From assembly GCA_949317995.1 (NCBI GenBank), contig OX439037.1, positions 53,354,080 through 53,418,079 of the forward strand: a stretch of 64,000 nucleotides of DNA, written 5' to 3'. Positions within the stretch are counted from its first letter, which is position 1; the number at the start of each line of letters is the position of its first letter. The position numbers were made by a program, and so were the translations under genes. This document shows positions 15,340-64,000 of the stretch, one piece after another. The stretch is from Acholoe squamosa (lineage: Eukaryota > Annelida > Polychaeta > Phyllodocida > Polynoidae). The notes beneath the pieces were generated by a model. That model did no database searches, was not told the origin of the DNA, and saw only the letters and a program-made list of their open reading frames with translations.

Positions 15340-16402
15340 GAGACCTGGGAGAACTGGGACAATATTTTTAAGTCACAATATTTTTTGTTCATCATTCCTA
15401 CAATAAGAACAACATCCAAAGTAATTTTCTCCCAGAAGAAGGATTGATGGTAGACCTACAATATGGACTATTCAGACATTTCCTATCTATCATCAATTCT
15501 TAGATAGAGCTTGATTTAATTTTGATTAAATCTGGTGAGAACTGGGACACCTCTAGGGAGAACTGGGATGCAACCTAATGAGAACTGGGGCGGACCAATA
15601 AAACATGTTGTAAAGTTATCACATATTAATCAAATTATTGAATTCCTGTAATTTCTATGATGTTTAAGACTGCTGACAAGATGCTAGAAATCATTTTGAT
15701 GTATAGTTACAAGATACTTTAATGATATCTTTATCAAGGTGTGCATTTTTATCAATGTAGAAATAGAGCAATTGTGGGAGAACTGGGACAACATCAAATA
15801 GCACATTAAATGAGATGAACATGTCATGGCTTGTTACCCAGTTTTTTAACCTTGTGATGCTGTAACTTCTTTTGGAGAACCTCCAGGTTCTTATTTTGAC
15901 TGATAGGCTTCCTGTCACATGTGTATTTGTACATCATTTGTCTGATTTTAGAAAAATCAGTTGTAGATTGGGGAGAACTGAGACGGGTGCGACCCAGTTC
16001 TCACAAGCTTGGCATTTTTAAGAAAAATATTCATATAGATCTAGTCTGAATAAGGCCAAACTAAGTAATTTTGGATAACTGATAATATCGAAAAGTTTTT
16101 AATACACATTTGGCACTATCAAAAATGGACTGTTGTGCTGTCATTTGGGAACCCTTTGAAAAAATAATCGCTAGACACTCCAAAAATATCTTTTTTTGGT
16201 AAAATAATATAGATTTTTTTTTGGTAAAATAATATAGATCTATTCTGTTATAATTCTTGATGTTTAAATAGCAGAAATCTTTTTCCCATAAAGTATAACT
16301 TCACTATCCAAAAAGTAGCATTGTTAGATTTTCACTAAACCTCTTGGTAGGTCTAGAACAGGGGGTGTCCCAGTTCTCCTTTGTCCCAGTTCTCCTTGTT
16401 GA
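15340..16402. repeat. Element reiterating GGGAGAACTGGGAC in both orientations
   Basis: The word GAGAACTGGGAC or a close variant occurs near 15,350, 15,540, 15,560, 15,580, 15,780 and 15,970. The complement GTCCCAGTTCTCC occurs near 16,370 and 16,385. The left edge GAGACCTGGGAGAACTGGG and the right edge CCCAGTTCTCCTTG are in inverted orientation. Exact borders and target duplication are unclear. Confidence 0.5.
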
Positions 16403-17000: not shown

Positions 17001-17775
17001 AATAGGGAGCCTAATTCTCGCGATAAACTATGTTGTAAAAAAAATTCTGATTTGGAACTAAAATGACCAATATTTGAATTGACCTGAAGGCCCACCATAT
17101 ATAAAATTTTAAGGCTCAACTCTCGTTCTTAAAAAAGTTATGCTAGGCCTAAAATATTCACCTATCCTTCAAGCCTGAGGGCGATAATATGCTGAGCTCA
17201 GAATCCGCCCGCACGTGACATGACTTCCCCTCCCTATTCCCCTAATGTTTGGCAATTTCTGAGCACCCCGGCAAAGTCTCACTCTTTGGCTTCATCAAAA
17301 CTTGAGAGCTCTGATTTCCTACACTTGGATCTCCATTTTTCTGAGCCCTCTCAGGGTAAAAAGTGGTGAAAATAGTTTGCTGTTGTTGCTTGAGGTAGAA
17401 TAAAACAAAAACACAACTCGTGGGGCACACAGGGGCTGTATTCCCATAGGGAGGGAAGTCACGTCACGTGCGGGCGGATTCTGAGCTCAGCATATTATTG
17501 CCCGCAAGCTTGAAGGATAGGGGAAAATTTTAGGCCTGGCATAACCTTTTTAAGAATGAGAGTTGAGCCTTAAAATTTCATATATGGTGGGCCTTCTAGT
17601 CAATTCAAATATTGGTTATTTTAGTTCCAAATCAGAAATTTTTTTACGACATAGTTTATCGCGAGACTTAGGCTCCCTATTCGTGGAGTGCCCCTGCTGC
17701 CCTGCGGGCACCCTGGGCAGCAGGGGCACTCCACTCATGGGCATACAGCCCCTGTATGTCCCACTCGTTGTGTTT
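17001..17775. repeat. Complex inverted repeat (two overlapping folds)
   Basis: Arm 17,001-17,231 is inverted at 17,447-17,682 (both contain CTATCCTTCAAGC-type and GCTGAGCTCAGAATCCGCCC-type words). The segment 17,404-17,445 (ACACAACTCGTGGGGC..) is inverted at 17,741-17,775 around the hairpin 17,683-17,734. Probably one inverted-repeat transposon beside an inverted copy of its own arm. Confidence 0.65.
17683..17734. repeat. Perfect 20-bp hairpin
   Basis: Stem GTGGAGTGCCCCTGCTGCCC (17,683-17,702) pairs without mismatch with 17,715-17,734 around a 12-base loop. It is GC-rich in an AT-rich surrounding and lies at the centre of the 17,404-17,775 fold. Confidence 0.85.
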
Positions 17776-24066: not shown

Positions 24067-27000
24067 TCTCTCCCCTTTTAGAATAAACTTTGGGTTATTC
24101 GTAATGTTGAAACACATATTTAGGATAAAGACACTATGAAAGTACTATTCAAATGTTCAGAATATGTACTGTCAGTTAAGAATGTTTATGGTAAACTATG
24201 TCAGCATCTTCTCGTATATATCAGATATATCAGTCACTGTCCTTTTGCATATTGAATGCGGTTACTAGTTTTCAAATAAATGAAACTTATTGAATGTTCT
24301 TGTCAATAACTTTAAACTTAGAGGTGTTCCTGGTGATGTGTTTGTCACCTCTATTAGCAGTGACCATTGACCCTTTACGCTCCGTAACAATATAGGGTTT
24401 GGAGTCATACGGTGTTGTTGTCTTGTTCCGTCGAGGTTGCTCTACCAGGACAACATCTCCTTGTCTGATGTCACTGGGATCAGCACGTCTCCGTTCATCT
24501 GCATAAGACTTCATTTTAGCCTTTGCTTGCTCATCTTGGCGACACATCACACTATCATTCCTTTCCTCCCCTAAAAATGAAGGAAGTTTCACCTCAAATG
24601 GATGTCCAAACATGGCAACAGCAGGCGACTCACCAGTTGTACAGTGAGGTGTAGCGTGGTAGTTACGAAGAAACTTGTTTATTTCCTGTTTCCAAGGTTT
24701 TCTCTCAGTGCGTGCACCTTTCACAACCTTGCCTAGATTCCTCATGAATCTCTCACACTCGCCATTCGCCTGAGGCCATAATGGTGTGATCCTTCGATGA
24801 TGGAAACCAGAGTATTTGGCAAAGTCCGCAAACTCTGCTCCTTGAAATGGAGGTCCATTGTCAGTCTTGAGTTCAACTGGTTTTCCAAGCGTTGAGAATA
24901 AGTCATCTAGGACTGGTACGACAGCCCTAGCACTTGTAGAAAACACCGTCAACACTATTGGAAATCTTGAGTAATCATCAATGATGACCAGCAGATATTC
25001 TCCTGTCGGTAAGGGTCCATAGAAATCTGCGCTCAACATCTTCCACGGTCCATCTGCAAGTGGAGTCATCATAAGTGGTGTCTGTGTTTGTTTCTTAACC
25101 ACAGCTTGACAAGGCAGACACTGATCGATTCTCCTCTTCAACTTAGCATCAATACCCGGAAACCAAACTTTGGTGCGGATCAGTTTCTTTGACTTCACAA
25201 GACCCTGGTGACCCTCGTGTGCTAAGTCAATAGCTCTGTCTTGTAGACTTAGAGGCATTACCAGTCTTGTACCCCGAAGAATGTATAAGTTGTCATGAGC
25301 TACAGTAAGCTCATCCTTTACCCTGTGATAGGCCTCATATGTTCCTCGATCCGGACCTGGTCTCAGTAATTTGTGCCACTTGTTCTCTTTGATAGCAGTA
25401 GCAACTTTCCGAAGAGTATCATCTGCCAGCGTTTTCTCACATACCTCTCCAAAAGTGATTGCGACTGGTACTAAAGACATAGCCACGGAGTTGACATACT
25501 CCTCACTCATCTAACTCAGCCCTGTACGCCTTGGCCTTCCGATTGGGATGCCGTGATAGATAGTCAGCCGGGTTGTCTTTTTCTGGTCTGTAGACAACTA
25601 TCATGTCATACCTCTGGAGTCTTAAAGTCCATCTCTCAATCCGTGCAGGTGGATTTGCATGAGGATTGTTATAAATGGAAGTCAGTGGCTTATGGTCGGT
25701 GACTATAGTGAAAGGACTGCCCAGTACATACAGATGATACCGCTCACAACCGAAGACAACTCCAAATGCTTCTCTCTCTGTCTGTGAGTATCTCTGTTCC
25801 ACTGGAGACAGTGCTCTACTTGCAAAACTAACCACGACATTCTCTCCATTGATCTTCTGTGTCAGTATCGCTCCCAGACCAACCAGACTCGCATCGACAA
25901 TGATCTCAGTCGGTTTGTCTGGATCATAGTAGCGGGTTACTGTATCCTCACGTAAGGATTTCTTCAACTCCTTGAAAGCATCTTCCTGACGTCTACCCCA
26001 GTTCCACTCAACGTCCTTCTTAGTAAACTCTCTCAGAGGCTCAGTAATTGTCACATAGTTCGGGATGAACCTAGCACAGTAATTGGCCATACCAATCAGA
26101 GAACGTACTTCTGTTGGAGTCTGGGGAGCATCAGCTTCGTTAAGTGTGGCAACCTTATCTGGGTCTGGTGACATACCTTCCTTGAAAAAGACATATCCTA
26201 GATACTTAAGATTGTCCTTGTTCAGAATACACTTTGCCTTATTCAAAGTTAGGCCCTTCTCACAGAGTCTCTGTAGCACCCTCTGTAGACTGTCATCATG
26301 GCTCTCTTGGGTCTTGCCATAGATCAGAATATCATCACTGACATTCAACACACCAGGAATACCTTCTAGTGACTCACGGATAGCATTCTGGAATATCTCG
26401 GATGCACAGCACATCCCAAAGTTCAGCCTTTTATATCTCCACAGTCAGATATGAGTGGTGAAGGTAGTGATGTACGTTGACTCCTTGTCCAAGAGTAACT
26501 GATGATACCCCTGGTTCAAGTCCAATTTAGAGAACTTGACTGACCCGTTCAGATCACTCACTATTTCTTCAATAGTAGGCATTATGTGTCTGACCCTTAA
26601 AATAGCCTTGTTTGCACTCTTTATATCCACACACATTCTGATGTCTGTAGGATCACTGGACTTGGGTAGAAAGACAGGGTGTGAGACCCAGGGTGTTGGT
26701 CCCTCCACACGTTTAATGATGTCGTCTTTCTCCAATTGTCTGAGTTTCTCTTCAACCTTACTTCTCAGATTGATGGGGATCTTTCTGTGTGGTTTTGCCA
26801 CAGGTGGAATACTCTCATCTATATGCAGCTTGACAGTAAAGTCTTTCAACAGTCCCACCTCTTTGAACAGTGGATCTGAGTCATCAAAGCATATAGCAAG
26901 GAGGCGTTCCATGTTTGCTTGTATGAGACCTAATGCCTCTCCAGTCTCATAAGTCAGCAAGCTTCCTTCATTTTCTTCTGTGACAAAGAATAATGCATCT

Positions 27001-28432
27001 GTCTTCATGTCATGAACCTGAATACAAGCTCTAAATCTACCTCGGATGTTGATTGGTACTTTAGATGTATAAGCTTTCACAACAATATCTGGGGGTTGCA
27101 GCGTCGGCTCTTGAATGCAGCATTGTCAATGATGTTGATACCTGCTCCTGTGTCAAGAATGAATGGGATCCTGGTACCATCAACCTCTGCCATCACCTTC
27201 AGCCTGTTGCTGTTCTTAGAAGTTGTGGGCTTCAGTGTGTAGATGTACTTTTCACCAGTATTATCATTTGTATCCTCCCTGACCTTGTTCACACATGCCT
27301 GTTTCTTCTTTTTCTTCTTCACTTCTGCCTTCGGCTTAGGCTTTTCTTCTTTAGAAGGTGAAGTACAGCATCGTGCAAAATGATCAAGGTTACCACACTT
27401 CCTACAAGTCTTCCCTTTGGCAGGACACCATCGTTGATCATGCCGGAAATTGCAAGAACTACAGCGTGCCAGTTCTCCTTTGTCTGCAGGTTTAGGCTTC
27501 TGAGACTCTTGTTGATATGACTTCTGTTGCTGTTTAAACTTGTGCCTATGTACAGATATCTCACCTCGCTCAATAGTACTAGATTGTTGCTCAGACATCT
27601 CCATAGATCTACCTATGTCTAAGATCTGGTCAAGTGTCCAGTTCTTGTTCTCCAGAGCGTCTTTCCTCAACTTGGATGATCTACAGTGTTGAATCACCTG
27701 AGACTTCAGTTCACGCTTTAAATCAGTGAATTCACAGTACTTGGCAAGCTTCCTCAATTCAGTGACATACATATCCAGAGTTTCACCTGGTTCCTGCTCT
27801 CTCATGCGGAACTCATAGATGCCAAACTCAGGATTCACTTGAGGTATGAAATAGTCATTGAGAGCATCACACACTACTGTATAAGCATCCTGATTATTTG
27901 CAGCCACAGGATCTGGGATAGTCAGTGTATCACAAATGTCATCAACCTCCTCACCTGCATAGTGTAGCATCAGAGACTTCTTCCTTGCAGCATCTGTTAT
28001 TGTCAGACCAACCATCAGCTGTTCAAAGCGTCGTACCTACTTTTTCCACCTGACCCCGACTGTGTCTCTGTCTGACAGATCAAAAGGTGGAAAGTGTGGC
28101 AGAGCGTCAGCCATGATTGCCTTCAAGCACAGATGCTCAGGGTTACTTACAGGATCAACAGTTAATGTCAGTAAAGTCACTCACCCTGTCTTGGAAGTCT
28201 TAATCAGTCCTACCTCAATACAGTGGTGGTGGTAGTAGCACACTGTTGGCCTGTCCCTGGATCTTAGCGCACCTCAGCAGTGGCAGGTGTACACACAGAG
28301 CAGCAACAGGTAAGCAGGGAGGGGAGCTCCAATCCAGCTATTTCTCCAAAATTCTCCTTATTCGGCCAATAACTCGTGTAAATTCCTATCTCTCCTGGAT
28401 CACCGAGTTACCATCCCATCCTCGTCGCCAAA

Positions 28433-28599
28433 TGTAATGTTCTATGGGCTATGACCTGAATAATCCATGAATTTAACTCCTGGAGATACACACACAACAC
28501 TGAACCAAAATGGCTGCTGGACTCAAACTAATTATTTATTCACAAGAGGTCACATGACCTGAATACTGGTCTGTGATTGGCCGATGGCTCAACACTACA
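28433..28599 (-). repeat. 5' LTR of the gypsy element
   Basis: 167 bp, the same length as the 3' LTR with about three differences. The primer-binding-like tract follows on its inner side. Confidence 0.92.
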
Positions 28600-31285
28600 T
28601 CGACCTTCCAGTGTTGTTCGGATGCCATAACCTGCTGATCCTGGTGTTTCATCTTTCTCCATTCACACTCCCATACGACGATCAACTTGTGACCTAGAGC
28701 TTTTAAGTAAGCGGTTACTCTAGCTGCTGTGTCACGTTTCTCGTCCCTGTCTGAAGCACACGGATATCTGCACAGCGGTATGCACTTGTGAGCGTGGAAC
28801 CAACACCCGTGAATTTGGAAAACGGTATTAGAGGACGGGTGAAAACAGTCTACGCGAATTTTTCGGCAACCTAGAGATACCTCCCCTCCGTTGAAAGCGT
28901 GGAGAAGTTTCACGCTGTGGGCATGCTCCACGTAGCATAACCACTCTAACGCGGACTTAGAGTGTCTTTGCCTAATTTTCGGTTTGAACTCAGTCTTGGG
29001 TCGTCTCACCAGGTAATAACCTGTGCAGTGTGCTTTGCTCATGCAGCGCAAGTACAGAGAGTTAGCGTCTACACCGAGGATGTGCTCGCATGTTCTCGCT
29101 TCTTCGCCGTACTTGTGTTTCCTTATCAGGGTGGCACCCTTCTCGTGAAATCTATGGAAGATTATGGAAGGACCCCCGACCAGATTTTTTTTATCAGAGA
29201 GTAGAGGTGGGAGTCGAACTGGTGAAAGGTCACGAACGGTGTCTGTGTGGTTTGAAAAAGGAACCGTAAAGTCAAACCCAGAAGGGAGTTTCCGTCTTTG
29301 AACATGTCAATGTTGTGGTCCCTGAAAAATTTAGCGTGATTATTCAGTGCCTCTATGAAGGGTTTCACCTCTTTATTGTTGTAGTAGATCAAGTAATCTC
29401 TGAAAGTTTGCATGTTCTGTTCGGACCAAACCTTTTCACATTCGGCGTAGTCAGATTCAAACATCTTGGTGCCAGTCAGTTTGCTGTTAAATGCAAATCT
29501 TGGTGGTAGTGTTCTGTTTTCCAGTTTCCTGGTAGATGTCATCCATTCGTAAGGAAAGTGACCTTTGTGTTGATTTCTGGTGAAAGCTAGTAGATAATTT
29601 GCGTAATTATAACCAGGTGCCAAATAGTTTACTACGTCCAAGAAAACAGTGTGCTGAGTGTAAATCGCCAAGCATTGGTTACTTCTCTTTATGACGCTGA
29701 ATTCCTCGTTCTCTCGGTCTTTGGAGGAGAAGAACGAGTGAAGCTGTACTTTGATCAGATTTAAGTCATAACGCCCCGAGTTGAAACCTACGACCGGAAC
29801 TTGGCAGAGATATTTCAAAAGTCTCTTCTTCAGTTCAACTAAAGGGTGTCTTAACCGAGTTTCATTGAAGTCGATGTCGGGAGGACTGAATGCCTCCTCT
29901 AGGTGGAGAGCTTCAGCTATCCTCTCATCTAACTTCGCTAACGTCGGCTGGTAAAGTTCTAGCACTGCTTCCCTGATGACCTTGGCGGTGTCGTTTATGT
30001 AATTCAAAACCCTATCCAACAAGGGGTCTGAATCTGTGTCGGATTGTCTCACGAAGCAGACCGGACCTTCGTGTCCTGGAAAGTCGGATGCGACGCTAGC
30101 CAACAGAGGGATGTGTTCCCACAGGACTGACACATGTTCGGACGACGGTTCTTTGGACGGTCTGAAGAAAGCTTCGAAATCGAAGGTAATTTTGTAAGGG
30201 TACATTTTTGAATTTCCGTCGGGAGGAAAAATGGAAAAATCTGCTAGTGCTTCGAAAACCGTTTTCGAATTTTGGTAGATTTCACCTACGTATTTCAAGG
30301 CGACTTGTATGCAAGGTGAAAGTTGGTTCCTGTGTCTTTTCAGTAAGAACTTAGTTGTGAATGCCGACTTACACTCGGGACATTCGTAGATGCCAGCGTA
30401 TTCATTGAAATCTGTAATGAGGGACATGTGCAAACCATGTGTCGCGGACAGGTGTAGGTTGACTTTACCTCGGGTGGCCGATGGTTTTGGAAGGTGGACT
30501 GATCAGGCTAACTCGGTTTTTCAGGTTCTGAACTCTCACTTTACGGGTGGTGTAAACTGCTATTTGTATATCAAACAAGTTCTCTAACGTGGGTAAGTCC
30601 CTGATGATCAAACCTGGAAAGGTTTCAGGTTTAGCAGTGGAATCAAACTGACACAACAATTTTTAAGCATGTTTGTCGGTCTTGTATAAGTGAAAGGATA
30701 TGCAGCGAAAGACACATAACTTGTCCCTGTTGGGAAAATCTAACACACCTCCTCTCTTTTTAAGTCGACCCGAATGGGTAACCCTGCCCCCTATGGGGAA
30801 TTCTCTGGGTCCCATGTAAACGCAAACGTTCAAATTGGTTGGAAAAAAGAACTTTCCAGTTGGTGTCAGAGTCTCAAAGTTTCTGTACTTCTTCGGAAGT
30901 GACAGTGTTTTCCATGAGGGAGAGAAGCTCTTCCAAAGTTTCTGAATTAGTTATGGTGGGGAGGGGTTGTAAAAGAGTCGCGTTGTTTTGGGAGGCGTGA
31001 AAGTAGCATAGTTTGTTTCTGTTTTCTCTGTGTTGTAAAATTAACCCTACTGACAAACCCACTTTGTATCTGAATCTTTGCGTGATGGGAATCTGACGCA
31101 TAGTATCTACAGCGTCACTCAATTCACCGGTTGGTAGTCTTATGTTTGTTACACTCACGCGACTCCCGTGTGTCCTGACTCCTGTTTGTATTGCGGGCCA
31201 ATTCCTGGTGAATATTTCCCTACATTTTTTCCACGTGTCTGTGGTAATTATACACCCTTTTAAATGATGATCCATTTTCACTGAG

Positions 31286-31339
<54 letters not shown>

Positions 31340-31341
31340 AT
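31286..31341. repeat. (TATC)n microsatellite
   Basis: About 14 tandem TATC units with one variant near the end, between two parts of the PolB fossil. Confidence 0.95.
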
Positions 31342-31617
31342 CAACTATTTATCTGTACACCTATATACACAACATACCTACACAAAGTATATACACTGAT
31401 TGAGATGTGTGTGACATACGTCAACACTATCTCACACACATCTCAATCAATTTTTATCAAGAAATTCAAGGATAATCTCTTTTTTGTCACCAAGTTCTTT
31501 CAGCGCCTTGGTCGAAAGCGTCACAGCGTCCTGTGTCAGAGTTTTCTGGGGTCCTTCGTACCTGCGCATGTGGATGACGTTCTTACCCTTGTAGTAGCTG
31601 ACAGCAACATACAGCGC

Positions 31618-31817
31618 NNNNNNNNNNNNNNNNNNNNNNNNNNNNNNNNNNNNNNNNNNNNNNNNNNNNNNNNNNNNNNNNNNNNNNNNNNNNNNNNNNN
31701 NNNNNNNNNNNNNNNNNNNNNNNNNNNNNNNNNNNNNNNNNNNNNNNNNNNNNNNNNNNNNNNNNNNNNNNNNNNNNNNNNNNNNNNNNNNNNNNNNNNN
31801 NNNNNNNNNNNNNNNNN
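31618..31817. other. Assembly gap (200 N)
   Basis: Exactly 200 unknown bases; the round number suggests a gap of estimated or default size. The content changes from the PolB fossil (left) to a DIRS-like retroelement (right), so the join may hide a boundary or a misjoin. Confidence 0.98.
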
Positions 31818-34536
31818 GCTCTTCCACATAAATCTTGAAATAGAATCAGTCAAGTGATTTAAAACGTAAGGGGCAGCTCTGGTACCAAATGATAGAAAAT
31901 TGTCCACCAAATACTGGTCCTTTTCATCAATTGACCAACGCAACCCCTGAAACTGCCTGTCCTCCGGCCTAACCAAAACTGAACGGTACGCTGCCGAGAT
32001 GTATGTCACCGCCAGAAACATGCCCGGGCATAACTGATCACACACATCATCAATCTTGGTGAACTAAAAATGTTGAAAAGTTTGTTTCATGTAAGAATTA
32101 ATTGATCTGTCTATCGGGCGACTTGCATCGGTGATAGGTCGAAAGCCCCCTGACGCTTTAGGGACCGCCCCCAAGGCATGAACACATAAGGGTTTGTCCG
32201 ATACAATGTCTAATTTATCCCTTGTATACTCGTCATGTACCAAGTTGTCAATAAACGAGTGAACCTGGAAAGTAGCGATTATAGTTGGGAGTTTTATAAT
32301 CATCCACTTTTGCATGGGGATCTACTATTTTGAACCCGTTCATGACCCCACCCAGGATGAAGTGACTATCAATATCAGAGTCCGTACCAAATAATAACAT
32401 GTCTCTCCACTTGCCTGCTTGAGTTGGGAATGGACGTCTGCCACCACATGAACATAGTTACAGTCCCACAAAGGCACATAATTATCATACAAAGCTAATA
32501 AGGCATTCAAACTGTGAGAACATAGCAATTCCTCACAATTATGCACATGGATAAAATCAAAGGAGCAAAAATTCACATCCGCTAGCCTAACTCAGGCTTG
32601 TCTCTGAGAACCTGGGGAGGCCTGGTAACCAAGCTGCTGGTAATTTTGCTGTTGACCAAATAATGCGTCTGGTTTCCTACTGTGCCCTGATACTGGTTGG
32701 TGGACTGGTTTTGGGGTTTTGGTAGCAATATTTTGCCGGGTGTGAGCATCCCCACAAACTGTGCATGAGTGCTGCTTGGCACAGTGAAATTAAATTTTTT
32801 GCACAAATGATCTGGGCAGGGGATCATGAATTTTGACTGTGAGCGACCTTGACCATGGCGGGACTGATTGGCAAATTTTAACTGTTGTGGCAGCTTCATG
32901 GCTTTTTCTAATTCTCGTTGAATTTTTATATATGCCAATTTTTTCTCAATACCAAGATTCTCTGCCATAGACCGATGCTCTGCTGCTACAAAACCCGGTA
33001 TTTCCTTTTTCAGAACTTTATCAGTCACATCATATTCATACTGGCACATGGCTTTCATGGAATATGTGGGTTTAATCTCCCTGAGAGCGAGGAATTTCAT
33101 ATGCTGCAGGTAGGACATGGCGGTTAACTGGGGGTTATTGGCGAGCAATAAACTCTGAAGCACATTAAGCATACCATATGCTAGTTCCCTGTAACTCATC
33201 TTGTCGTAGGGTTTATCTGTAGCAATGTGGTAATCAGGGCGTTACCATATCTTAGACCTTTTCCTCTTAGTTGCTACACTAGCTGCATGTAAGGTGGTTA
33301 AAAGGTCATCCTCTCCCTGAAGTTTACCTGTCGTAGTGTTGAACAGACTGTCCACATCCCCGTTCGGAATGCCAATGTTACCTAGACCTAGACCAGCAAA
33401 AGCTAGTCCTGTTTGCAGGGTGGGTAGAGATTGCTGCTGTTGAGACCCAACCTGAACATTGGTATTGACAGGCATCTGTTGTCTAAGTAGATCTAGTAGC
33501 TGCTGCTGTAGACCACCCTGGGCAGTGGTGTTGACTGGTACATGTTGATTACCAACCTGGATATTTTGCTGACTGGTCCCTGTTGCTGTTGCAGCTGTTG
33601 CTGTCTCCAGGCCTATAACTGCTGATATTCCTCCAAGGTAACCTGGGAGTAGGTGGATTGTGGTGTCCATGGCCCTGGAGGTGCACCTACATTAATGTCA
33701 TTACCACTGGACATGGCTGCTGGACCCACAAAACCACCACCAGCACTCACAATGATAGTGCGCGCCGACTGGTTTGTACCGGGTACCTCACGGCCACTAG
33801 CGGGTACCGCGTGGGTGCCAGGAAGAGGGTTATTGCCCACATTTTGCAAATTAACATTGTTCATACCTGTTATGAGCTGCTGGAGGCCTGTAGGGGCCTG
33901 TGGATGGCCAATATCTCCTGAATTCATCGATACAGAGGCTGTAGTATTGCCAACCGGAAGGCCCGGTCCGCCATTTTGAATGTTATGATGTCCCGGCGCA
34001 TTCGGGTCCCCTCTGTGGTCCTTTACCAAAAGTTTTTGCAATGGTTCCCCAGTTAGCAGTGGATATTTGTGTGGTATTGTACTGGGATCTGAATAATCAA
34101 ATGCTGCCATGAGGCCACTCCATGCTCGCTCACCTTGGGCAATATCCTACAAAATATGTGTGTTTTGAGCGCGAATAGATGCCAATTCCAACTCCAATTC
34201 CTTCTGCTTACCCAATTGTTGTATCTGCTTCTCTGTGGCTTTCTCTGCCTCGATTTGTGCTTGCAAATCCTGTACCTTCGCATCAAAGGCATCATCCGTG
34301 GCCCCGGCGTCCTGCCCGGGTGCCCCGGCGTCCTGCGTGGCCCCGGGGTGGCCATGGCTGGATGACTCCATTGTAGCCGGTGGTCCCCCATGGCCTGCTT
34401 GCTCTTTTAGGGCCCCTAACTGCTGCTGTAGGTCCCATTTGGGGTTAGGGTGCTTACATGCAGGACACAGTCTGGAGTTCCCGTGGTATTGCTCCTCGCA
34501 GGAGTCACAAATGACTCCCATAATGAAAAAAAACAA
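31818..34536 (-). mobile_element. DIRS-like retroelement, fossil
   Basis: Fossil retroelement on the - strand, cut at its downstream side by the N gap. Parts, right to left: a gag-like region beginning with a zinc ribbon (CDSC..CPAC) and a Glu/Lys/Gln coiled-coil stretch (about 34.15-34.5 kb), Gln/Gly/Pro-rich low-complexity sequence (33.2-34.1 kb), a second gag-like alpha-helical region (32.6-33.2 kb), then reverse transcriptase text (31.83-32.3 kb) with GAVPKASGGFRPITDASRP and a SAYRSVLVRPED / FGTRAAPYVLN region. This RT style is typical of tyrosine-recombinase (DIRS/Ngaro) elements; the recombinase itself is not in view. Broken, with about three or more interruptions. Confidence 0.6.
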
Positions 34537-35150
34537 ACAAAGTTCTTGTCCTGCACTGCCTGTCTGCCATGTGTGGCTGCTGCTTGCTGAACTGCTGTCA
34601 CCCCCAATGTGGCGGGAGAGTGTGAAGGGGTAACTGTTCTAAACTACACCAGGTGGAGGTGGTGCAGCATCTAAAGTCAATAGGCCAATAGATCACCCGA
34701 GGGTGATCTATTTGGATTATATAATCTAATAGAAGACCTTTGTGGAGTATCATTATCCTGTACTTTTATCATTATCAATATAACACGTTTTCAACAACTT
34801 TAATGTATATGCAATGGAGCACCTAATGCATTATGTCAACCGTGACGTCATCAGATGCATCAGATAAACCTGCTGCTCTCCTCAATAGTGACACATATTT
34901 CAATAATTGTACCAGCCCTCATCAAAATTGGACAGTGTATTTTTTGTTCAAGGTTTAGAACCTTGGAGAATTAGATATGCCATCTTCCTCCAGAATGGGA
35001 GATGAACTCCTGCATGAAGTAAAACCATTGGAAACATTTCTCTGCAAAATATATGCACCACATTGTTAGACAACACCCTATGGTCTCTGATGAGAGATCA
35101 AGTTGAAATGATGGTTCCAGCTGGCACAATTCTGATGCCTCATGCTTTTT
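34537..35150. other. Intergenic stretch
   Basis: Contains a perfect palindrome TAGATCACCC-GA-GGGTGATCTA at 34,689-34,710. Nothing else was recognised. Confidence 0.5.
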
Positions 35151-38425: not shown

Positions 38426-38625
38426 TAAAACTTTTTTTCCACTTTGAAATTAAAATCTTAGGAAAATGATATTAGGCCTACTCTAAGATGCATGTTAAAT
38501 ACTGCCCCAATACACAGAAGAAAGATATACTGTCTTTGCCTAGGCACAGACAGTCGACTCAGTGGCCTCATTGGTAGGACAGCTGAGTGTGTAACCCGGG
38601 TGTGTAAGCAGAAAGTGAAGAGTTT

Positions 38626-39192
38626 AGGTGAGGCTCCACTACGCGATTTTTGCTGAAAATCGGAGCTATTCTCACAAAAGCAGACACAAACACAGATTAT
38701 AGAGTGGTATTTGTTAATATTTCAAGGTATAAATAGAAGATTGAGAGAGGTTTCTGTTTATGTGGGGAAGGCTTTGTGTACAATCTCAGGCACATTTTTG
38801 TTGCCAAATGATGTTTTTGTTTACTAAATCAAGTTGACCTAATGTAAATATTGCAGACTTTCACACTGATGACTCTCTGCAACTCAATATCAGACAGGTT
38901 TGATTTTTACAGTACAAGACCCTGCGATCTGTGTGACTGCTGTGTTGTTATTTATATTTTGCTGTGTTGATGTTTATATATTGAACTCCCACCCAATCAC
39001 AGAGTCTATGCAGGTGCAGGTTAGTTGGTAAATATGGCACACAAGGAGAGAGATCACCCATAAAATAACCCCTGAAATCTCATGTTTACAATTTTGAATC
39101 TCATGTTTACAATATAGGAATATCAACACCTATACTATAGGGGTAAAATTAGGTGAGACTGTACCAAAAAATCGCGTAGTGGAGCCTCACCT
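38626..39192. mobile_element. MITE, AGGTGAGGCTCCACTACGCG ends, complete copy
   Basis: 567 bp with ends AGGTGAGGCTCCACTACGCG and its inverse CGCGTAGTGGAGCCTCACCT. Other copies: 43,310-43,735 (partial) and 47,641-49,103 (interrupted). Non-coding. The flanks do not give a clean target duplication (possibly a TWA type). Confidence 0.85.
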
Positions 39193-41186: not shown

Positions 41187-42344
41187 TACGGAGCCTCTAA
41201 TAGGACATACCAAAAAATAATTGTTTTTCTAAAAAAATATTCTTGCGGGTACTGGGACATTCTTGCAGGTACTGGGATATTCTAGCGCGTACTGGGACAT
41301 TCTTGCAGGTACTGGGGCATTCTTGCAGGTACTGGGGTATTCTTGCGGGTACTGGGATATCCTTGCGGGTACTGGGACATTCTTGCGGGTACTGGGACAG
41401 TCTTGCGGGTACTGGGATATTCTTGCGGGTACTGGAATATTCTTGCAGGTACTGGGTCATTTTTGCGGCTACTGGGACATTCTTGCGGGTACTGGGGTAT
41501 TCTTGCGGCTACTGGGATATTCTTGCAGGTACTGAACAATACACAAGTTTCGAGTTCGCCGTGAACACCCCTAGAGCCGGGGATATCAACGGTTAGTGGC
41601 GCTGTAAATGACTGTGTGCATCATTAAAGTCCTTCTGTCTAATATATCCAACAAAATATGACTTATCCATTCAAGGTACAGGACCATACATGCATGGTGT
41701 ATACCTGTATAGATTCCCTATCAGATATTTGCATTAATGCCTTCAGCAGGAGGGTTTTAATTTCAGAGCTAGTACATCTCCTATATGGAAAATCTACTCC
41801 AACCCCTCTCTCCTGTGTACTCACAGGCTGGGTATCAGCGAAGTGAGCGCAGGAAAGCTATCTCGGAAGTCCTGTATTCTTGCGGATACTGAACAATTCT
41901 TGCGGGCACAGGAATAATCTAGTTTGGAAACATTCTTTTGGGTACAGAAACTATTCCTGGGGATACAGAAATAATTTTTGCAGGTACAGAAACAATTCTT
42001 GCAGATACAGAATCAATTCTGTAAGGTGTAGAAACCATTCTGCTGGGTGCAGAAATTATTCTTGCATTTCCGGGATCCAGAGAATTCTTGCAGGTAATTT
42101 TGTTAGTGACCATATAAGGACATCTCTTGAATATTCAGCAATACCTATGTGGGTAATTACTCAATTTTAAACCAGCAAAATTTAACAATGTTCCTGTACC
42201 TGCAAAGATTCTCTTGTACCCTCAGGAATGTTCCAGTATCCGCAGGAATGTTCCAATATCCGCAGAAATGTTCCAGTATCCACAGGAATGGTCTAGTATC
42301 CGCAAGAATATTTTTTGCATGAAAAAAATCTTTTTGGTATGTCC
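41187..42344. mobile_element. Foldback-like element A, 20-bp repeat arms
   Basis: The left end TACGGAGCCTCTAATAGGAC, continuing ATACCAAAAA, is followed by about 15 tandem 20-bp units of the type ATTCTTGCGGGTACTGGGAC (41,242-41,535). A non-repetitive middle (41,540-41,875) follows. The right part has diverged units (41,876-42,110) and inverted units (GTTCCAGTATCCGCAGGAAT, 42,185-42,310), ending TTTTTGGTATGTCC. The right tip GGCTCCGTA is not present. No transposase. Confidence 0.75.
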
Positions 42345-42441
42345 AATCTCAACCACAATAACCATATCCCCATAAACACTGTTTTTTACAGTGTATATGT
42401 ACATGTGTGTAAGACTTATCTCTAGTCTGGTGATCTCTGAT

Positions 42442-42448
42442 TATAAAG
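42442..42448 (+). promoter_or_regulatory. TATA-like box
   Basis: TATAAAG about 150 bases upstream of the 42,594 start codon and about 100 bases beyond foldback element A. It would place a start near 42,473. Position and sequence fit, but a chance match is possible. Confidence 0.35.
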
Positions 42449-42593
42449 AGGTCACACAGAGTTAGGTGCTATCACTGCAGCAGCACTCATACACGGGATA
42501 CCACACGATACACCCATATGTCAGTGTAAAATATTACACATAAGGCCCTACCATCTGTATTCACACCTGTAGAAGCTTGTACCATGTGCAAAC

Positions 42594-42771
42594 ATGTCTA
42601 AGGATGAGAGTACCCACCTCCTGTCCGCAGGAGACAGTACTGGGCACCTGGGGTATGACTCTTTGTTGGCACATCCCTCTCTGAACCGCCCTGAAGAACA
42701 CGAGGAGATCGGTCCTCCCAGGCCCTCCCACTATGATCCAGTCAGCCCTATCGATTACCTGCCAAATGAAG
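42594..42771 (+). CDS. Probable first coding exon of an unidentified gene
   Basis: ATG in acceptable context (AACATGT) opens a 178-base frame that ends at a strong donor, GAAG|GTACGT (phase 1). The 59-residue peptide begins MSKDESTHLLSAGDSTGH and is acidic and Pro/Ser-rich. It has no signal peptide or membrane segment, and ends SPIDYLPNEG. ESTHLL fits the acidic dileucine sorting motif [D/E]xxxL[L/I], so I infer the cytosolic N-terminus of a membrane protein sorted to endosomes or lysosomes. I do not recognise the family, and I found no convincing second exon within the window. Splice site, start context and the upstream TATA-like box together support a real exon. Confidence 0.6.
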
Positions 42772-43300
42772 GTACGTCTTGAGTTGTATACAACTATACA
42801 TGCTGCCTGTGAGTTAATGTTTACCAGGCTGTATGAGGTAAAATTGCATGGGAATTTCCCAGTATTCATATCCCGACTATCAGATATACTAACTTCTAGT
42901 TAGACAATATGGGCAATAATTGCATTTTTCTTTTGTGTGAAGCTGCACTATGTCGGTCAGCATACCACAGAAGCCAGATCCTTTGTGATTAAAGTTCATT
43001 CTATTTGATAAACTTCTTATCCAGGGGTGGATACTAACTTATTTAGGTACTAACCATCCATGCAGGCCTGGGACAAGCTTTTGGCCCTCAGCTAAAAGCC
43101 TTTGGCCCGGGATTGTAGCTGGAAACCCCTGTTTTATGTAAATAGACAAATCAATTATTAAAAAAAAAACACTTAACAAATTGAAAGTGTAATAATTATA
43201 AGCACTGTATCAGAAATATTAACCTACAAGTTGTGATTTTGTGTGTCCCCGGTACACATAAAATCTCATTAAAATTATCACAGTCCTAAAATTACTTCGG
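42772..43300 (+). other. Putative intron start with hAT-like fragment
   Basis: Near 43,022 a fragment CAGGGGTGGATACTAAC resembles the ends of the 36,780 element. No other feature was recognised. Confidence 0.4.
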
Positions 43301-43309
43301 TGACAAAAG

Positions 43310-43740
43310 TGGAAACTCCACTACGCGATTTTTGCAGAGAATCGCAGCTATTCTCACAAAAGCTGGTACATACACACATACTATAAAGGGATATTTGTTG
43401 TTATTGCAAGGTAGAAATCTAATGTATATGGAGCTTTTTGTTTATATGGGGATGCCGTTGTGTACAATGTCAGGCATGTTTTTGTTGTCAAAAGGTGTTT
43501 TTTACTAAATTTTTAATCAAGTAGATCTCATGTAAATATTGTAGACTTTCACACTGATGGGTCGCTGCAGTTCAATATCAGACAGGTTTGATTTTTACAA
43601 GACTCTGCGATTTACACCCTGTGCTGCAACAGAGTCTGTGTAGGTGGAATCTCATGTTTACAGTTTTGAATCTCATGTTCACCTTTTACATCCTATACTC
43701 TAGACACTGACTGGGTAAAATTTTGAGAAAGTGTCATAAT
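43310..43740. mobile_element. MITE, CTCCACTACGCG family, partial copy
   Basis: Starts at AACTCCACTACGCGATTTTTG and follows the 38,626 copy with internal shortening to about 43,735. The terminal CACCT end is replaced by the tandem array that begins at 43,745. Confidence 0.7.
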
Positions 43741-43744
43741 GATA

Positions 43745-45240
43745 TGGGTTAGTGTCATATAAGTGTCTGGCAAGGTGTCACAAGGGTCGGGGAGGTGTCA
43801 CAAGGATCTGACAAGGTGTCACAAGGGTCTGGGGAGGTGACATAAGGATCTGGCAAGGTGTCACAAGGGCATGTCAAGGTGTCACAAGGGTCTTGCAGGG
43901 TGTCACAAGGGTCTTGCAAGGTGCCACAAGGGTATGGTGCCCAGCCCTTTTTTAACATTTTAAAACGTTTTGCCATGTTAAAGAGCCATAGGGAAACATT
44001 CTGAAACATTTTGCAACGTTTTTCGTTGACTGGGTGAGGTGTCATAAGGTCTGGCCAAATGGTCTGGCAAGAAGTTACAAGGGTATGTTGAGATGTCATA
44101 AGGGTCTGGCAAGGTGTCACAAGGGTCTAGGGAGGTGCCATAAGGATCTGGCAAGATGTCACAAGGGTCCGGTAAGATGTAACAAGAGTCTTGCAAGGTG
44201 TCACAAGGGTGCGGTGAGGTATCATAAGGGTCTGGCAAGGTGTCAAAAGGGTCTGACAAGATGCCACAAGGGTATGGCCAAGTGACACAAAGATTTGGGG
44301 AGGTGTCACAAGGGTACGGGGAAGTATCACAAGGATGTAGAAAGGTATGGCAAGGATGTTAGAAGGTGTGACAGGGCATGGATACATGTTGTAAAGGTAT
44401 ACGCAAGTGTCACACAGGTGTGACAGGCCATCAGGATTGTATGGTGAGTTGTCAGAAGTATGAGGGAAGGTGGCAGAATAATATTGAAAGGTATGTAAAG
44501 AGTGACAGAAGGTGTCAGAAAGCTGTTTGAGACGTCAGAGTGACAGAGTAAGGTGTCAACTGTCATAATGATGTGGAATATCTTTATAAGGGTATGGCAA
44601 GCTGTCACAAAGGTATATAAATGTATCAAAAGGATGTGTTAAGGTGTCAATGTGGTATTGGATAGTGTCATACAGATGTGGTAAAGGTGTTGTAAAGTGT
44701 TATGGGGGTGTAGATACATGTCATAACTACTCAGTCAGCTATCACAGGGATAGGAGAAGGTGTCAGAAGGAAGTGGAGATGGAGGTATGGAGGGGACTGA
44801 TAAGGTGTCAGAGAGATGTCAGAAGGTAAAAATGATGTTGGAAGGTGTCATAAGGGAGGAAAAAGACTGCTTGGTGACATCAGAAGTGTAGGTAAAGGTG
44901 TATAACCATTAATGATGGTGTCAGAAGTGAATAGAAAGGGGTCATAGGAATTTTGCAAAGTGTCACAAGGGATGGCAAAGTGTTAGAATATTGTGTAAAG
45001 GTGTTAAAATGATACAAGAGTGTACTGAGGTGTCACAATGTGTGTGTAGGTGTCAGATCAATGTGAAAATGTATCAAAAAGGTAATACAAGATTTGAAAA
45101 GGATGTGGGAGGGTGTCAAAAAGATTTGACAAAGGGTCTGAATGATATGGGGAATTATCACAAAGGTATGTAAAGGCACTACAAAGGTGTCTAAAGGTGT
45201 CAAGTGGATAGGAAAGTCTTTGGAGGGTAAGGGGGAGGTG
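43745..45240. repeat. Degenerate 21-bp tandem array (GTGTCACAAGGGTCTGGCAAG)
   Basis: Units near AAGGTGTCACAAGGGTCTGG repeat in one orientation. They are regular to about 44,340 and increasingly diverged to 45,240. A short foreign piece (43,935-44,030, AACATTTTAAAACGTTTTGC) interrupts it. No translation is conserved. Confidence 0.8.
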
Positions 45241-46300
45241 CCAGAAGGTAAGAAAGTAAGTGAAGTAGAGTTGAATGGTGTGGAGTGAGTGGAGTTGAAT
45301 GAGGTGGAGTTGAAAGGAGTCAAATTGACCTGGGTTTGGTAAATTGGGTGAAATTAGGTCAAGATGGGTCAACTGGCCAGAGATTGGACCAAATTGAATT
45401 AGACTGACCCAGCCTAAGTGAACTGGGAAAACAGGTCATACTTGGTCAAAGTAGCTCAATTTGGCCCAAACAGGTCAAGTGGCCAGAGATTGGGCCAAAT
45501 TGAATAAGATGGGCCAAACATCAGTAGATTGGGTCAAATTAGGTAAAAATGTGTTAAGTTTGCACAAGATGGGTCAAATGGTCAAAGATTTGCCCAAATT
45601 GAGACATTTGTACCCAAGATGGTTAAATCAAGCAAAAGAGGTAAATATGGCGGATGAAATTGGCCAAAGGTGGATGAAATTGGCCCAACATGAGTGCATT
45701 GGTCCAAATAGAATCAGCCTGATCAAAGTTGGGTAAATTCGGTTAAAATTGATCAAAATTGGTCTGGCCAAAGATTGGGTGAAATTAGATAAGATGGACC
45801 CAAGATGAGTAAATTGGGTCAAAAGCAGTCAATATAGGTTCATTAGGCATAGGTCAAATTGGACCAAGATAGATATATTTGGGAAGAATAGAGTCAGATT
45901 GACTCTTTTTTAATCAATATTGGCCTGATTTGTCCCAATTTACCTAACTTGAGTCATTCTGACTGACCAATATACTTATTCTGGGCAAACTTTGGCCCTC
46001 TTTACCCATTTCAAACCATATATTGTCCCCTTTTGGCCTAATTTTCCCACCGTAGGTACATCTGACTCAATTTGGCCAAATCTCTGGCTATTTGATCCAT
46101 CTTGAGCTATTTTGACCCATATCAACCTGTTTTGACCCAATTTGCCATTTGGACCAATCTGATTGAGTTTGGCCCAGATGAACCATCTTGGATTGATTTG
46201 ACCTTTTTGACCCTTGTTGACCCGATTCTTCTCAATTTACGCAAATTGGGTCAATCTGACAGTCCACTCAACTCCACTCCATTCAAATCCACTCCCATAG
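45240..46300. repeat. Inverted tandem array (AATTGGGTCAAA words), palindromic
   Basis: 45,250-45,900 reiterates ATTGGGTCAAATT / AGATGGGTCAA words. From about 45,910 the same vocabulary appears in complement (TTGACCCAATTTG, CCATCTTG). The outer edges GAGTTGAATGAGGTGGAGTTG (45,290; split GAGTTGAATG/AGGTGGAGTTG) and ACTCAACTCCACTCC (46,264) are mutual inverses. The block therefore folds back on itself. Confidence 0.75.
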
Positions 46301-46439
46301 TGATGGACTTACTTACCTGTCCTTATCAATAAGCCTCACACATAATTTACCAAACATCTAGGCAGCTTATAAAGCAAAGTCAAGGACCACTATGGCTTAA
46401 GCCCGGCTGAAATCCCCACTAGAAGCCATAATTCTTTTG

Positions 46440-46745
46440 CATTATGTGGGACACATAGGGTGGAGAAAAACTAACTCAAATGATGAACTCAAAGTGTCAG
46501 GGCTTATTTTGAACTAAAGAGAAAACTTCAAACAAAACACCATTTTACTGTATCTCATCCCTCACTATACTCATACATCAATTGAAGTACTTTTGATACA
46601 TTTGGGATGCATTTGGGAGATATTAAATGAACATTTACAGTTTGAGGTAAGTGTTTTGTAAAACTCAAAATTAGGCTGTTTGAGTTCAAAAACTGCCTTG
46701 AGTTCACTACCCCAATATTGAACTCAAAACTTTCAGGAACTGCAG
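46440..46745. repeat. AACTCAAA / TTTGAGTT-rich inverted block
   Basis: AACTCAAA words at both edges and TTTGAGTTC near the right, with a diffuse inverted arrangement. Probably another short foldback-like repeat; the limits are uncertain. Confidence 0.4.
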
Positions 46746-46749
46746 GGCC

Positions 46750-47179
46750 TTCACAAATCATAGAAAGTGTGCATATGGGGCCTTACATGTCATTCGCCTA
46801 GACATGTGCCCAGAAAGAGAATTCTTATAAGTATGCTTCTTTTACAATAGCAAGGACATATCTGACATGAATGATAATGTGATTTTCTTAATCTACAGGT
46901 CAAAATAGTCTGGACCTGAGATTTTCATGGAGTTATGAAGATTGTTTCTGTAGGAATTTAAGCCCTCAACATGGCTTGTAACTCAAAGTCATTCTCCCAG
47001 ACACAATTTTGCCCAGACAATTTTGGTCATTTTTGGCACATTTTACCCCCTTGGAGCCCAAAATATGCATATGGGACCATCAAAACCCATATGTAACATG
47101 AAGATCTCATCCAGCCTGACACTTTGAGCCAAACAAATAGTGGGAGAAACTAAAATTCGAACCGTAGGGGCTGGAATAC
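46750..47179. other. Intergenic stretch
   Basis: Repeated GAGCCAAA/CCCAGACAATTTTG words only; nothing assigned. Confidence 0.3.
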
Positions 47180-47552
47180 TACCGAGCCTTGGAGAGGACA
47201 TCAGTTTTCTACACTTTTTTTTCATTTCCGTTTCCGCAACTTTTTATTTTCATTTTCGCAACATTTTATTTTGTTTTCGCAACTTTTATTTTCGTTTCTG
47301 CAACTTTTATTTTGGGTCTAGGGGGTCTATCTTTGCAGCAGTTGCCAAGACTCAAATTATAACTTGTGAAAATGAAAATAAATGTTGCAGAAATGAAATT
47401 AAAGTTGCGAAAATGAAAAATAAAAAGTTGCGGAAATGAAAATCAAATTTGCGGAAAAGAAAATTTAACTGGCGGAAACGAAAGTAAAATTTGCAGAAAC
47501 AAACTCTAGAAAAAAAGGTGTAGAAAACGGATGTCCTATAAGGGGCTCCGTA
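47180..47552. mobile_element. Foldback-like element B, AACTTTTATTTTCG arms
   Basis: 373 bp. The left end TACCGAGCCTTGGAGAGGAC and inverted right end (complement TACGGAGCCCCTTATAGGAC), each followed by ATCMGTTTTCTACAC, enclose arms made of about 18-20-bp units of the type CGCAACTTTTATTTTCGTTT and their complement. The centre is near 47,320. Flanks GGAATAC and GTAATAC are the likely target duplication. Confidence 0.8.
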
Positions 47553-47640
47553 GTAATACCTCCAAATTGGTCATATGCAAACCTTCTATGATTTTCGACC
47601 ACAGAGTGAAAATATTCTGGAACAGAAAAACGAACTCATT

Positions 47641-49103
47641 AGGTGAGGCTCCACTACGCGAATTTTGCCAAAAATCGGAGCTATTCTCACAAAGCTACGG
47701 AGCCCCTAAGAGGACATGCCAAAAATAATTATTTTCAGCAGAAAAAAAAAATTCTTGCGGATACTGAAGAATTCTTGCGGGTACTGAACAATTCTTGCGG
47801 GTACTGAACAATTCTTGCGGGTACTGAACAATTCTTGCTGGTGCTGAACAATTCTTGTGGGTACTGAACAATTCTTGCGGGTACAGAAACATTCATGTTG
47901 GGGCTTGAGGAGTTTATCATCATTCAGTTTCCACAAGAACAGTTTAGTATCCGCAAGAATTGTTCAGTATCCCAGGAATTGTTCAGTATCTGCAAGAATT
48001 GTTCAGTACCCGCAAGAATTGTTCAGTACCCGCAAGAATTCTTCAGTATCCGCAAGAATTGTTCAGTTTCCGCAAGAAATGCTCAGTTTCCGCTAGAATT
48101 GTTCAGTATCCACAAGAATTATTTCTGTACCCGCAAGAATTATTTCTGTACTCGCAAGAATTGTTCAGTACCCGCAAGAATTGTTCCTGTTCCCGCAGGA
48201 ATGTTCCTGTTTCCGCAGGAATGTCCCTGTTTCTGCAGGAAATGTTCCTGTACCCGCAGGAATATATTTTGCATGAAAAAATCTTTTTATAATGTTCCTG
48301 TTTCCGCAGGAATGTCCCTGTTTCCGCAAGAATGTTCCTGTTTCCGCAAGAATGTTCCTGTTTCCGCAGAAATGTCCCTGTTTCCACAGGAATGTTCCTG
48401 TACCCGCAGGAATATATTTTGCATGAAAAAAATCTTTTTATTATGTTCCTGTTTCCGCAAGAATGTTCCTGTTTCCGCAAGAATGTTCCTGTTTCCGCAA
48501 GAATGTCCCTGTTTCCGCAGGAATATATTTTGCATTAAAAAAAATATTTTTAGTATGTCCTATTAGGGGCTCCGTACAAAGCAGACACAAACACAGATTA
48601 TAGAGTGGTATTTGTTATTATTTCAAAGTGTAAATAGAAGAGTGAGAGAGCTTTTTGTTTAGGTGGGGAAGGCTTTGTGTACAATCTCAGGCACATTTTT
48701 GTTGCCAAAAGATGTTTTTGTTTACTAAATCAAGTTGACCTAATGTAAATATTGCAGACTTTCACACTGATGAATCTCTGCAACTCAATATCAGACAGGT
48801 TTGATTTTTACAGTATAAGACCCTGCGATCTGTGTGACTGCTGTGTTGTTATTTATATTTTGCTGTGTTGATGTTTACATATTGAACTCCCACCCAATCA
48901 CAGAGTCTGTGCAGGTGCAGGTTAGTTGGTAAATATGGCACACAAGGAGAGAGATCATCCATAAAATAACCCCTGAAATCTCATGTTTACAATTTTGAAT
49001 CTCATGTTAACAATATAGGAATGTCAACACCCTATACCTTAGGCACTATAGGGATAGAATTAGGTGAGACTATACCAAAAAATCGTGTAGTGGAGCCTCA
49101 CCT
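47641..49103. mobile_element. MITE, AGGTGAGGCTCCACTACGCG family, interrupted copy
   Basis: The same family as 38,626-39,192. Its 55-base left tip (47,641-47,695) and its body (48,577-49,103) are separated by foldback element C. Without that insert it is about 576 bp. A further end-like piece, TGTAGTGGACCCTCACCT, follows at 49,144-49,161. Confidence 0.85.
47696..48576. mobile_element. Foldback-like element C, 20-bp repeat arms
   Basis: 881 bp with terminal inverted repeats TACGGAGCCCCTAAGAGGAC (left) and complement TACGGAGCCCCTAATAGGAC (right). The left arm has about seven TTCTTGCGGGTACTGAACAA units. The right arm has about 28 inverted units in three sub-types (..GTTCAGTACCCGCAAGAATT, GTTCCTGTTTCCGCAGGAAT) with two GCATGAAAAAATCTTTTT spacers. 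The target duplication CAAAGC is at 47,690-47,695 and 48,577-48,582; the empty site is seen in the sister MITE. Confidence 0.9.
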
Positions 49104-49164
49104 AAATGCGAACTCAAACTTTGAGGAACGGCCTCCAGAAAATTGTGTAGTGGACCCTCACCTA

Positions 49165-49814
49165 AAATCAAATGTAGTTATAACAGGGTTTTCTACCGGA
49201 TACAGTAGACTTAACTGGGGGAAAGTCCACTGGCCACCCAGGCCAGATGAAAGGTTGTTTTTGGTTGAAAGAATCGGGCGGCCAGCGATCCTGCATTTTG
49301 AAGAAAAGTTGCATGATTCTGTGATTTTCTACAGCCAAACTCTGGAGTTGGCCAACCCTGATCTGATGAGGAGTGGGAATTTTAGGCAGAAAATGAGAGA
49401 ATTTTTTTTTATTAGAGTTGTGTCACCAAAATCAATGATGAACTCATATCTGTCATGGATCTCGTTGTATAGTGGAGTACTGTTGTTGTGAGCGATTAGA
49501 AAAAGAAAGGCCGTGGGTTGTCTAGTGTGCGCAACCATTTCTGAAGCTCTTTATAAAATAGAAATCCTTTCACATAAAAAAACTCTAAAATTCAACCAAA
49601 GTTCAGACGATCATTTTTTTCAGCTCCCCTGTATCAATTGCTCTGAAACAAAGTGCATATTTGTAGGTAACAATAACTTTTGTTAAATTTTGGGGGAAAT
49701 ATGCATATCATAATAACTCTCTTTCCTGTTACCATGACAATCAAAACTATGTGAAATCAATGTTTTTACCATGTCTGTTGCCATCGTCACCAGAATTTAG
49801 GCCGATGAAGCACC
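49165..49814. other. Intergenic stretch
   Basis: Contains a GGCCACCCAGGCCAG patch that recalls the interior of the 36,780 element. No gene was recognised. Confidence 0.35.
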
Positions 49815-62519: not shown

Positions 62520-63073
62520 CTGCATTTGTTATTGAATATCAAAATAGACACCCACCATCCTGAATACTCCAACTGGAGTGGTTAGACACCTTATGTGTGG
62601 GTCAGTGAAAATACCAAAGGACTGTATTCTAACCCACAATCTATAATCTCAGTATCTACAGTACAGGGAGACATATGGCATTGCCATGCACCTCCATGCC
62701 CTTGTCTTATGGACTGCATAGAGGTCCTCAGTCAAGTAGGAGTTCTGTAGATAGGAAAAAGTGCCTTAGTGTTGCAGGCCTGTGGGACTATGATATCCCC
62801 TGCCTTCTATTATAGGCCTCCCTTGATTGAACCATTGGTACATAGTTATTGACTGCTCTTGACCCTTACATAATTGTCTCACAGTATTACCTAGCACTCA
62901 GGTGATTGGATCAGAAATATGTGACGTGTCTTTATTACGCATGTCAAATGGAGTTGACAAACCAAATATGAGAGGGTCAACCTCATTTGACATGCCTTCA
63001 TACATGTCATCTGGGAGACAAATTGTGACCTGTGCAGTATGTGTCAAAGCGATCAGTGTTCTTTCCTCTGTGC
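62520..63073. repeat. 554-bp inverted repeat, left arm
   Basis: Collinear reverse complement of 63,447-64,000 with no length difference and no mismatch seen in the parts compared by eye. The spacer is 373 bases (63,074-63,446). Confidence 0.93.
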
Positions 63074-63446
63074 AATGTTGAGTGCAATATAGGCTATAGT
63101 TCCTGATTGAGGCTGCTATAGAGCTCATTTTGAGATATGTGGTTACATATGGCACGGGAGCATATCTGCTATTCTTCAAATAAATTATTAATATGTATTA
63201 GTCTAAGTTAGACAATCAAAAGTAAAAAGTTTTATTTCAGTATATTATCGATCATCGGCATGATTCCATTATACATTGTTTTGTCACTCATTAGGGAAAC
63301 GAAGATAGATTTATTACATTGAAACCCCCCACTTAACTACAGAAGAAGCGATCGATCTTAACCCGTCCGATAGATACTCAATCTCTCCATCGGAACTATA
63401 GGGTGAACTATTTTCTATCATGTAGATCGTTGTACATGCTGTATCA

Positions 63447-64000
63447 GCACAGAGGAAAGAACACTGATCGCTTTGACACATACTGCACAGGTCACAATTT
63501 GTCTCCCAGATGACATGTATGAAGGCATGTCAAATGAGGTTGACCCTCTCATATTTGGTTTGTCAACTCCATTTGACATGCGTAATAAAGACACGTCACA
63601 TATTTCTGATCCAATCACCTGAGTGCTAGGTAATACTGTGAGACAATTATGTAAGGGTCAAGAGCAGTCAATAACTATGTACCAATGGTTCAATCAAGGG
63701 AGGCCTATAATAGAAGGCAGGGGATATCATAGTCCCACAGGCCTGCAACACTAAGGCACTTTTTCCTATCTACAGAACTCCTACTTGACTGAGGACCTCT
63801 ATGCAGTCCATAAGACAAGGGCATGGAGGTGCATGGCAATGCCATATGTCTCCCTGTACTGTAGATACTGAGATTATAGATTGTGGGTTAGAATACAGTC
63901 CTTTGGTATTTTCACTGACCCACACATAAGGTGTCTAACCACTCCAGTTGGAGTATTCAGGATGGTGGGTGTCTATTTTGATATTCAATAACAAATGCAG
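63447..64000. repeat. 554-bp inverted repeat, right arm (continues beyond window)
   Basis: Reverse complement of 62,520-63,073. The match runs to the last base given, so the true arm is longer. Confidence 0.93.

Follow-up and report, generated by a model that had tools for sequence, protein, structure and literature searches.

Three foldback-shaped elements with a shared tip, differing repeat arms and probable IS3EU affinity in Acholoe squamosa

Foldback (FB) and sea-urchin TU elements carry inverted ends made of short subrepeats. An excerpt of PMC4079207 presents most foldbacks as presumed Mutator elements, with exceptions such as Galileo, and describes Tetris and DAIBAM of the Drosophila virilis group as two non-autonomous elements with common ends, probably served by one transposase. 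Across Drosophila species, conservation of Galileo elements is confined to about 40 bp at each end region (PMC3688188, excerpt). Galileo and Tetris/DAIBAM already show, in principle, constant ends combined with variable arms. IS3EU DNA transposons are marked by TA..TA termini and usually 6-bp duplications, and their families have been deposited in Repbase (PMC10045372, excerpt); in rust fungi they show TAYGG..CCRTA ends, 6-bp duplications and terminal inverted repeats (TIRs) longer than 30 bp (PMC12730594, excerpt). An oyster satellite survey contains table rows in which two satellites are labelled DNA/IS3EU (PMC8268682, excerpt). A foldback build on IS3EU-type tips looks unreported: no IS3EU foldback stood among the literature matches listed, in a search whose scope lay outside Repbase. 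In the excerpted text of PMC8268682 the word IS3EU occurs, and foldback appears solely in the title of a reference; PMC10294476 mentions neither.

We analyzed a window of 64,000 nucleotides from Acholoe squamosa (contig OX439037.1), with a G+C content of 41.6% and one 200-base gap (31618–31817); its genes are broken, dispersed repeats are numerous, and it contains a retroelement. Three elements in it, A, B and C, are in our view probably non-autonomous DNA transposons of IS3EU (IS3EU/GingerRoot) type with a foldback build, their transposase being encoded elsewhere (probability about 0.7). This assignment is drawn only from the TACGG..CCGTA ends and the 6-bp duplication length. The components of the elements are as follows.

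41187–42344, plus strand: element A, with left tip, left arm, middle and degenerate right arm
41187–41208, plus strand: left tip of A
41239–41534: left arm of A, about 15 units of 20 bp
about 42184–42312: right arm of A, degenerate, 71–75% complementary
47180–47552, plus strand: element B, with a tip at both ends and arms of about 21-bp units
47180–47201, plus strand: left tip of B
47220–47313 and 47370–47499: arms of B
47531–47552, minus strand: right tip of B
47696–48576, plus strand: element C, with a tip at both ends and two arms
47696–47717, plus strand: left tip of C
47750–47888: left arm of C
47923–48524: right arm of C
48172–48524, plus strand: outer right arm of C, a 151-bp higher-order duplication (2.3 copies, 93% matches)
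48555–48576, minus strand: right tip of C

Long inverted arms of short tandem units, the structural mark of foldbacks, are present, that on the right of A being degenerate. Single-strand folding showed that B and C fold more stably than their own shuffles (z −13.8, 0/100 and z −20.6, 0/20, respectively); for A the predicted fold of −183.3 kcal/mol stands without a shuffle control at that length. The earlier description of these elements as foldback-shaped is borne out by the inverted tandem arms and the folding of B and C. No transposase open reading frame (ORF) was found in A, B or C, where the only frames of at least 120 aa (stop-to-stop) are those running through the arms; the middle of A has no ORF of at least 120 aa. 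A Pfam search of ten window ORFs returned an integrase core only in the retroelement at 24.3–28.0 kb.

A pattern scan of the window identified five 22-bp tips, all at ends of A, B or C, with the shared sequence TACGGAGCCYCTWAKAGGACAT. Pairwise identity is 20–21/22 among four of them and falls to 16–17/22 when the left tip of B is compared with these; the same four carry TAYGG..CCRTA ends (4/5), and the left tip of B reads TACCG. Beyond the tip the resemblance between B and A/C ends at once: A and C continue with a CCAAAAA-like stretch, B with GTTTTCTACAC, so the likeness of A/C to B outside the tip is slight. The B tip region extends over about 35 bp if imperfect pairing is included, the tip proper being 22 bp. 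The earlier note had all three elements ending in the same motif, which holds for both ends of B and C and for the left end of A, and fails at the right end of A. There, just the inner nine tip bases, GGTATGTCC, are kept. Of the following 16 bases, 7 agree with the expected tip (permutation p 0.05). The hexamers on either side of A, CCGTAG and ACCATA, differ, which leaves its target duplication unreadable; a decayed right tip was not accepted on these values. AGGACAT also occurs inside A at about 42120 and could be a buried tip.

Selectivity of the terminal signature was assessed against shuffled windows. A strict scan required TAYGG..CCRTA, an inverted repeat matching at 12/16 or better and an exact 6-bp duplication; it matched element C alone, with 0 matches in each of 30 shuffles. 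A looser tip pattern gave 7 matches against a shuffle mean of 2.7 and maximum of 7 (200 mononucleotide shuffles); it is not selective, and by itself proves nothing. Besides C, three TAYGG..CCRTA pairs reached 13/16 or more in the inverted repeat (shuffle mean 0.57, maximum 5), one at 14574–16290 and two within a palindrome at the window end, and the window scan found a matching flanking hexamer for none of the three. The palindrome itself (62520–64000; 554-base arms, 100% complementary, 373 bases apart) reaches the window end and perhaps continues beyond it, and represents either a recent inverted duplication or an artefact of assembly. Scans of viral contigs with the tip (two scans) and the A/C arm unit (one scan) gave no match. 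A scan of genome contigs gave two tip matches, one in a bacterial MAG and one in an archaeal MAG, which were taken as chance; each showed one tip-like site, in 6.4 and 8.0 kb examined, without a preceding TAC.

Element C interrupts an older dispersed repeat, and its insertion site can be read against uninterrupted copies.

47639–49105: older dispersed repeat bounded by TIRs (TTAGGTGAGGCTCCACTAC...) and split by C
47690–47695: left copy of the target duplication of C, CAAAGC
48577–48582: right copy of the target duplication of C, CAAAGC
38624–39192: uninterrupted copy of the dispersed repeat, the empty site of C, with the junction at 38677–38678

The flanks of C (47639–47693 and 48578–49103) match the continuous repeat at 38624–39192 at 94.5% identity each, and also, over 43316–43611, a more distant uninterrupted copy that lies at 43316–43682. 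The uninterrupted copies carry CTCACAAAAGC once, where the C locus reads CTCACAAAGC, element, CAAAGCAG. An exact 6-bp duplication together with an empty site in two paralogous copies establishes C as a genuine insertion. With CAAAAGC, the uninterrupted copies have an additional A relative to the duplicated CAAAGC, so the exact letters of the original target of C are not visible. Given symmetrical tips (TACGG..CCGTA), the duplication measures 6 bp; 7 bp is formally possible with asymmetrical ends. The duplication is exact in one of the three elements, C; in B, the flanks GGAATAC (47173–47179) and GTAATAC (47553–47559) give an inexact duplication, either 6 bp (GAATAC) with a single base inserted or 7 bp in which one position differs, and A is unreadable. 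Within C, the 151-bp duplication includes an A-rich block, read by eye, that otherwise adjoins the tip, which indicates that tip-proximal segments of C have been duplicated. The TIRs of the dispersed repeat, TTAGGTGAGGCTCCACTACGCGATTTT, agree at 26/26 in the first copy (38624–39192), and an extra TIR copy lies at 49135–49166, after the copy that C interrupts.

The repeat finder returned tandem units of 20 bp in A and C and of 21 bp in B. The 20-bp unit agrees with the earlier note; the B unit, TTTTATTTTCGTTTCCGCAAC, is about 21 bp and not 17. The note had also called the B arms unrelated to those of A and C, which may be overstated: the B unit has the word GTTTCCGCAA in common with units in the outer part of the right arm of C, making the unrelatedness uncertain. 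All seven occurrences of this word in the window lie in these two elements, one in B and six in C. Only 2/2000 shuffles of the B unit share an equally long word with any of four A/C units, a result that is suggestive only, since one of the four was a hand-chosen variant. When the units are taken directly from the repeat finder, a single A/C unit out of six has a nine-base word in common with B, and for the remaining five the shared word is 5–7; two of 25 control arrays reach a shared word of eight. The controls were picked from 55 repeat-finder rows, excluding rows whose period was much shorter or longer and several that overlapped or were similar. For most A/C unit consensuses, the sharing with B does not exceed that of the control arrays. 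What these foldback-shaped elements have in common is essentially the tip, their arms differing, in line with the earlier note. The note's idea that mobility needs the tip alone is a conjecture; the arms may carry further transposase-binding sites, as those of Galileo do.

Other repeats lie in the same window. Between A and B (region 43740–46320), 21-bp tandem arrays occupy 43761–43937 and 44061–44334, and beside them a second foldback-like stretch (45264–46294) has halves that pair at about 66–70%; the tip pattern scan found no TACGGAGCC-type tip at 43740–46320. Short arrays of a similar 31–34-bp unit (AAGAGGGGTCAAAATTTTTTAGCCCCCCC type) start at 10491, 12492, 18024, 20883 and 21300, over 11 kb, perhaps as another repeat family carrying a minisatellite. 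An inverted repeat at 17001–17681 has 229-base arms, 93% complementary, with TAGGGAGCCTAA at both ends; its flanking hexamers, read by eye, do not match. The retroelement (24287–28036, minus strand) spans several frames; it has domains for reverse transcriptase, RNase H and integrase, plus weak matches to a protease and a zinc knuckle. A minus-strand run of ORFs of up to 446 aa (28536–34638) surrounds the 200-base gap and is perhaps another mobile element; of its four ORFs searched against Pfam, three had no match and one a weak C2H2 finger only.

Could the three elements be copies of one locus, duplicated and rearranged without separate insertions? The arm repeats common to A and C, and the crowding of all three into 7.4 kb, would fit such a history. 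Yet C interrupts a dispersed repeat and is flanked by a duplication, its empty site already disfavours a single locus, no repeat common to the flanks of A and C was found (E up to 0.01), and the arms of B differ. Because C is a true insertion and B has tips and arms of its own, we regard separate elements as established and give the one-locus history almost no credence. A place among Mutator-type foldbacks like Tetris is scarcely more credible: most foldbacks are presumed to be Mutator (PMC4079207, excerpt) and the build is alike, but the 6-bp duplication of C, not 8–10 bp, and its TACGG..CCGTA ends already disfavour this placement and leave Mutator kinship unsupported. Elements of another superfamily with duplications of about 6 bp (hAT6, a Polinton derivative), or of an undescribed one, are also unlikely, if less so. 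A, B and C contain no transposase that would fix the superfamily. hAT elements end in YARNG and Polintons in AG..CT, both different from the TACGG..CCGTA ends, which fit IS3EU. Duplications of 6 bp do occur in some hAT families (PMC12730594, excerpt) and are made by Polintons (PMC10045372, excerpt); Dada also duplicates about as many bases, but it lacks terminal inverted repeats (PMC3706591, excerpt).

Under the preferred IS3EU-type reading, a DDE transposase encoded elsewhere and presumably common to the elements would recognise the shared 22-bp tip, cut the element out and join it to target strands 6 bp apart, generating the 6-bp duplication. Between moves, arms of 20–21-bp units may grow or shrink by slippage or unequal exchange, and elements with one tip would thereby come to differ in arm sequence. 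A tentative alternative, which departs from this model only in what the arms do, casts them by analogy with Galileo as accessory transposase-binding arrays offering a candidate site every 20–21 bp. The putative common core would be GTTTCCGCAA in B and outer C and GTAYCCGCAA in A and inner C. The confinement of GTTTCCGCAA to B and C and the scarcity of B-unit shuffles with an equally long shared word speak for such arrays, as does the binding of Galileo transposase, through its THAP domain, to sites in the Galileo arms, seen by footprint and gel shift (PMC3688188, excerpt). Set against them are the single A/C unit of six that reaches nine shared bases, the two control arrays that reach eight, and the orientation of the core, which points inward from the tip in B but outward in A and C. 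Rather doubtful is the broader proposal that an IS3EU-type transposase moves modular foldbacks with a fixed 22-bp tip and replaceable arms of a predicted CCGCAA-containing binding core in either orientation, as a further independent foldback origin outside Mutator and P.

If foldbacks with IS3EU-type ends are real, the form would have arisen again on an unrelated transposase. One tip with different arms would also offer a natural comparison to find out if arms of repeats bind transposase or merely travel along, and the elements suggest a route by which short tandem repeats could spread.

Compared with known systems, the elements are alike in description, rather than by compared sequence, to FB and TU in having inverted ends of short subrepeats. 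Like Tetris and DAIBAM, they have ends in common with one another and tandem repeats in the arms; those elements differ in their 8–10 bp duplications, their units of about 220 bp and their assignment to Mutator (PMC4079207, excerpt). Galileo, of the P superfamily, likewise has a foldback build with tandem repeats in its arms (PMC3573991 and PMC3688188, excerpts), and differs in its 7-bp duplications (PMC3573991, excerpt), P-type THAP transposase and longer TIRs; C has 6 bp, and B would allow 7 with one mismatch. From IS3EU elements, A, B and C differ in having arms of tandem units and no transposase, and B in its TACCG left tip. Beside the fungal TIRs of more than 30 bp stand, here, a tip proper of 22 bp, about 35 bp in B with imperfect pairing, and inverted arms that are long but repetitive. 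The TA..TA termini and TAYGG..CCRTA ends of the elements and the 6-bp duplication of C match those of IS3EU.
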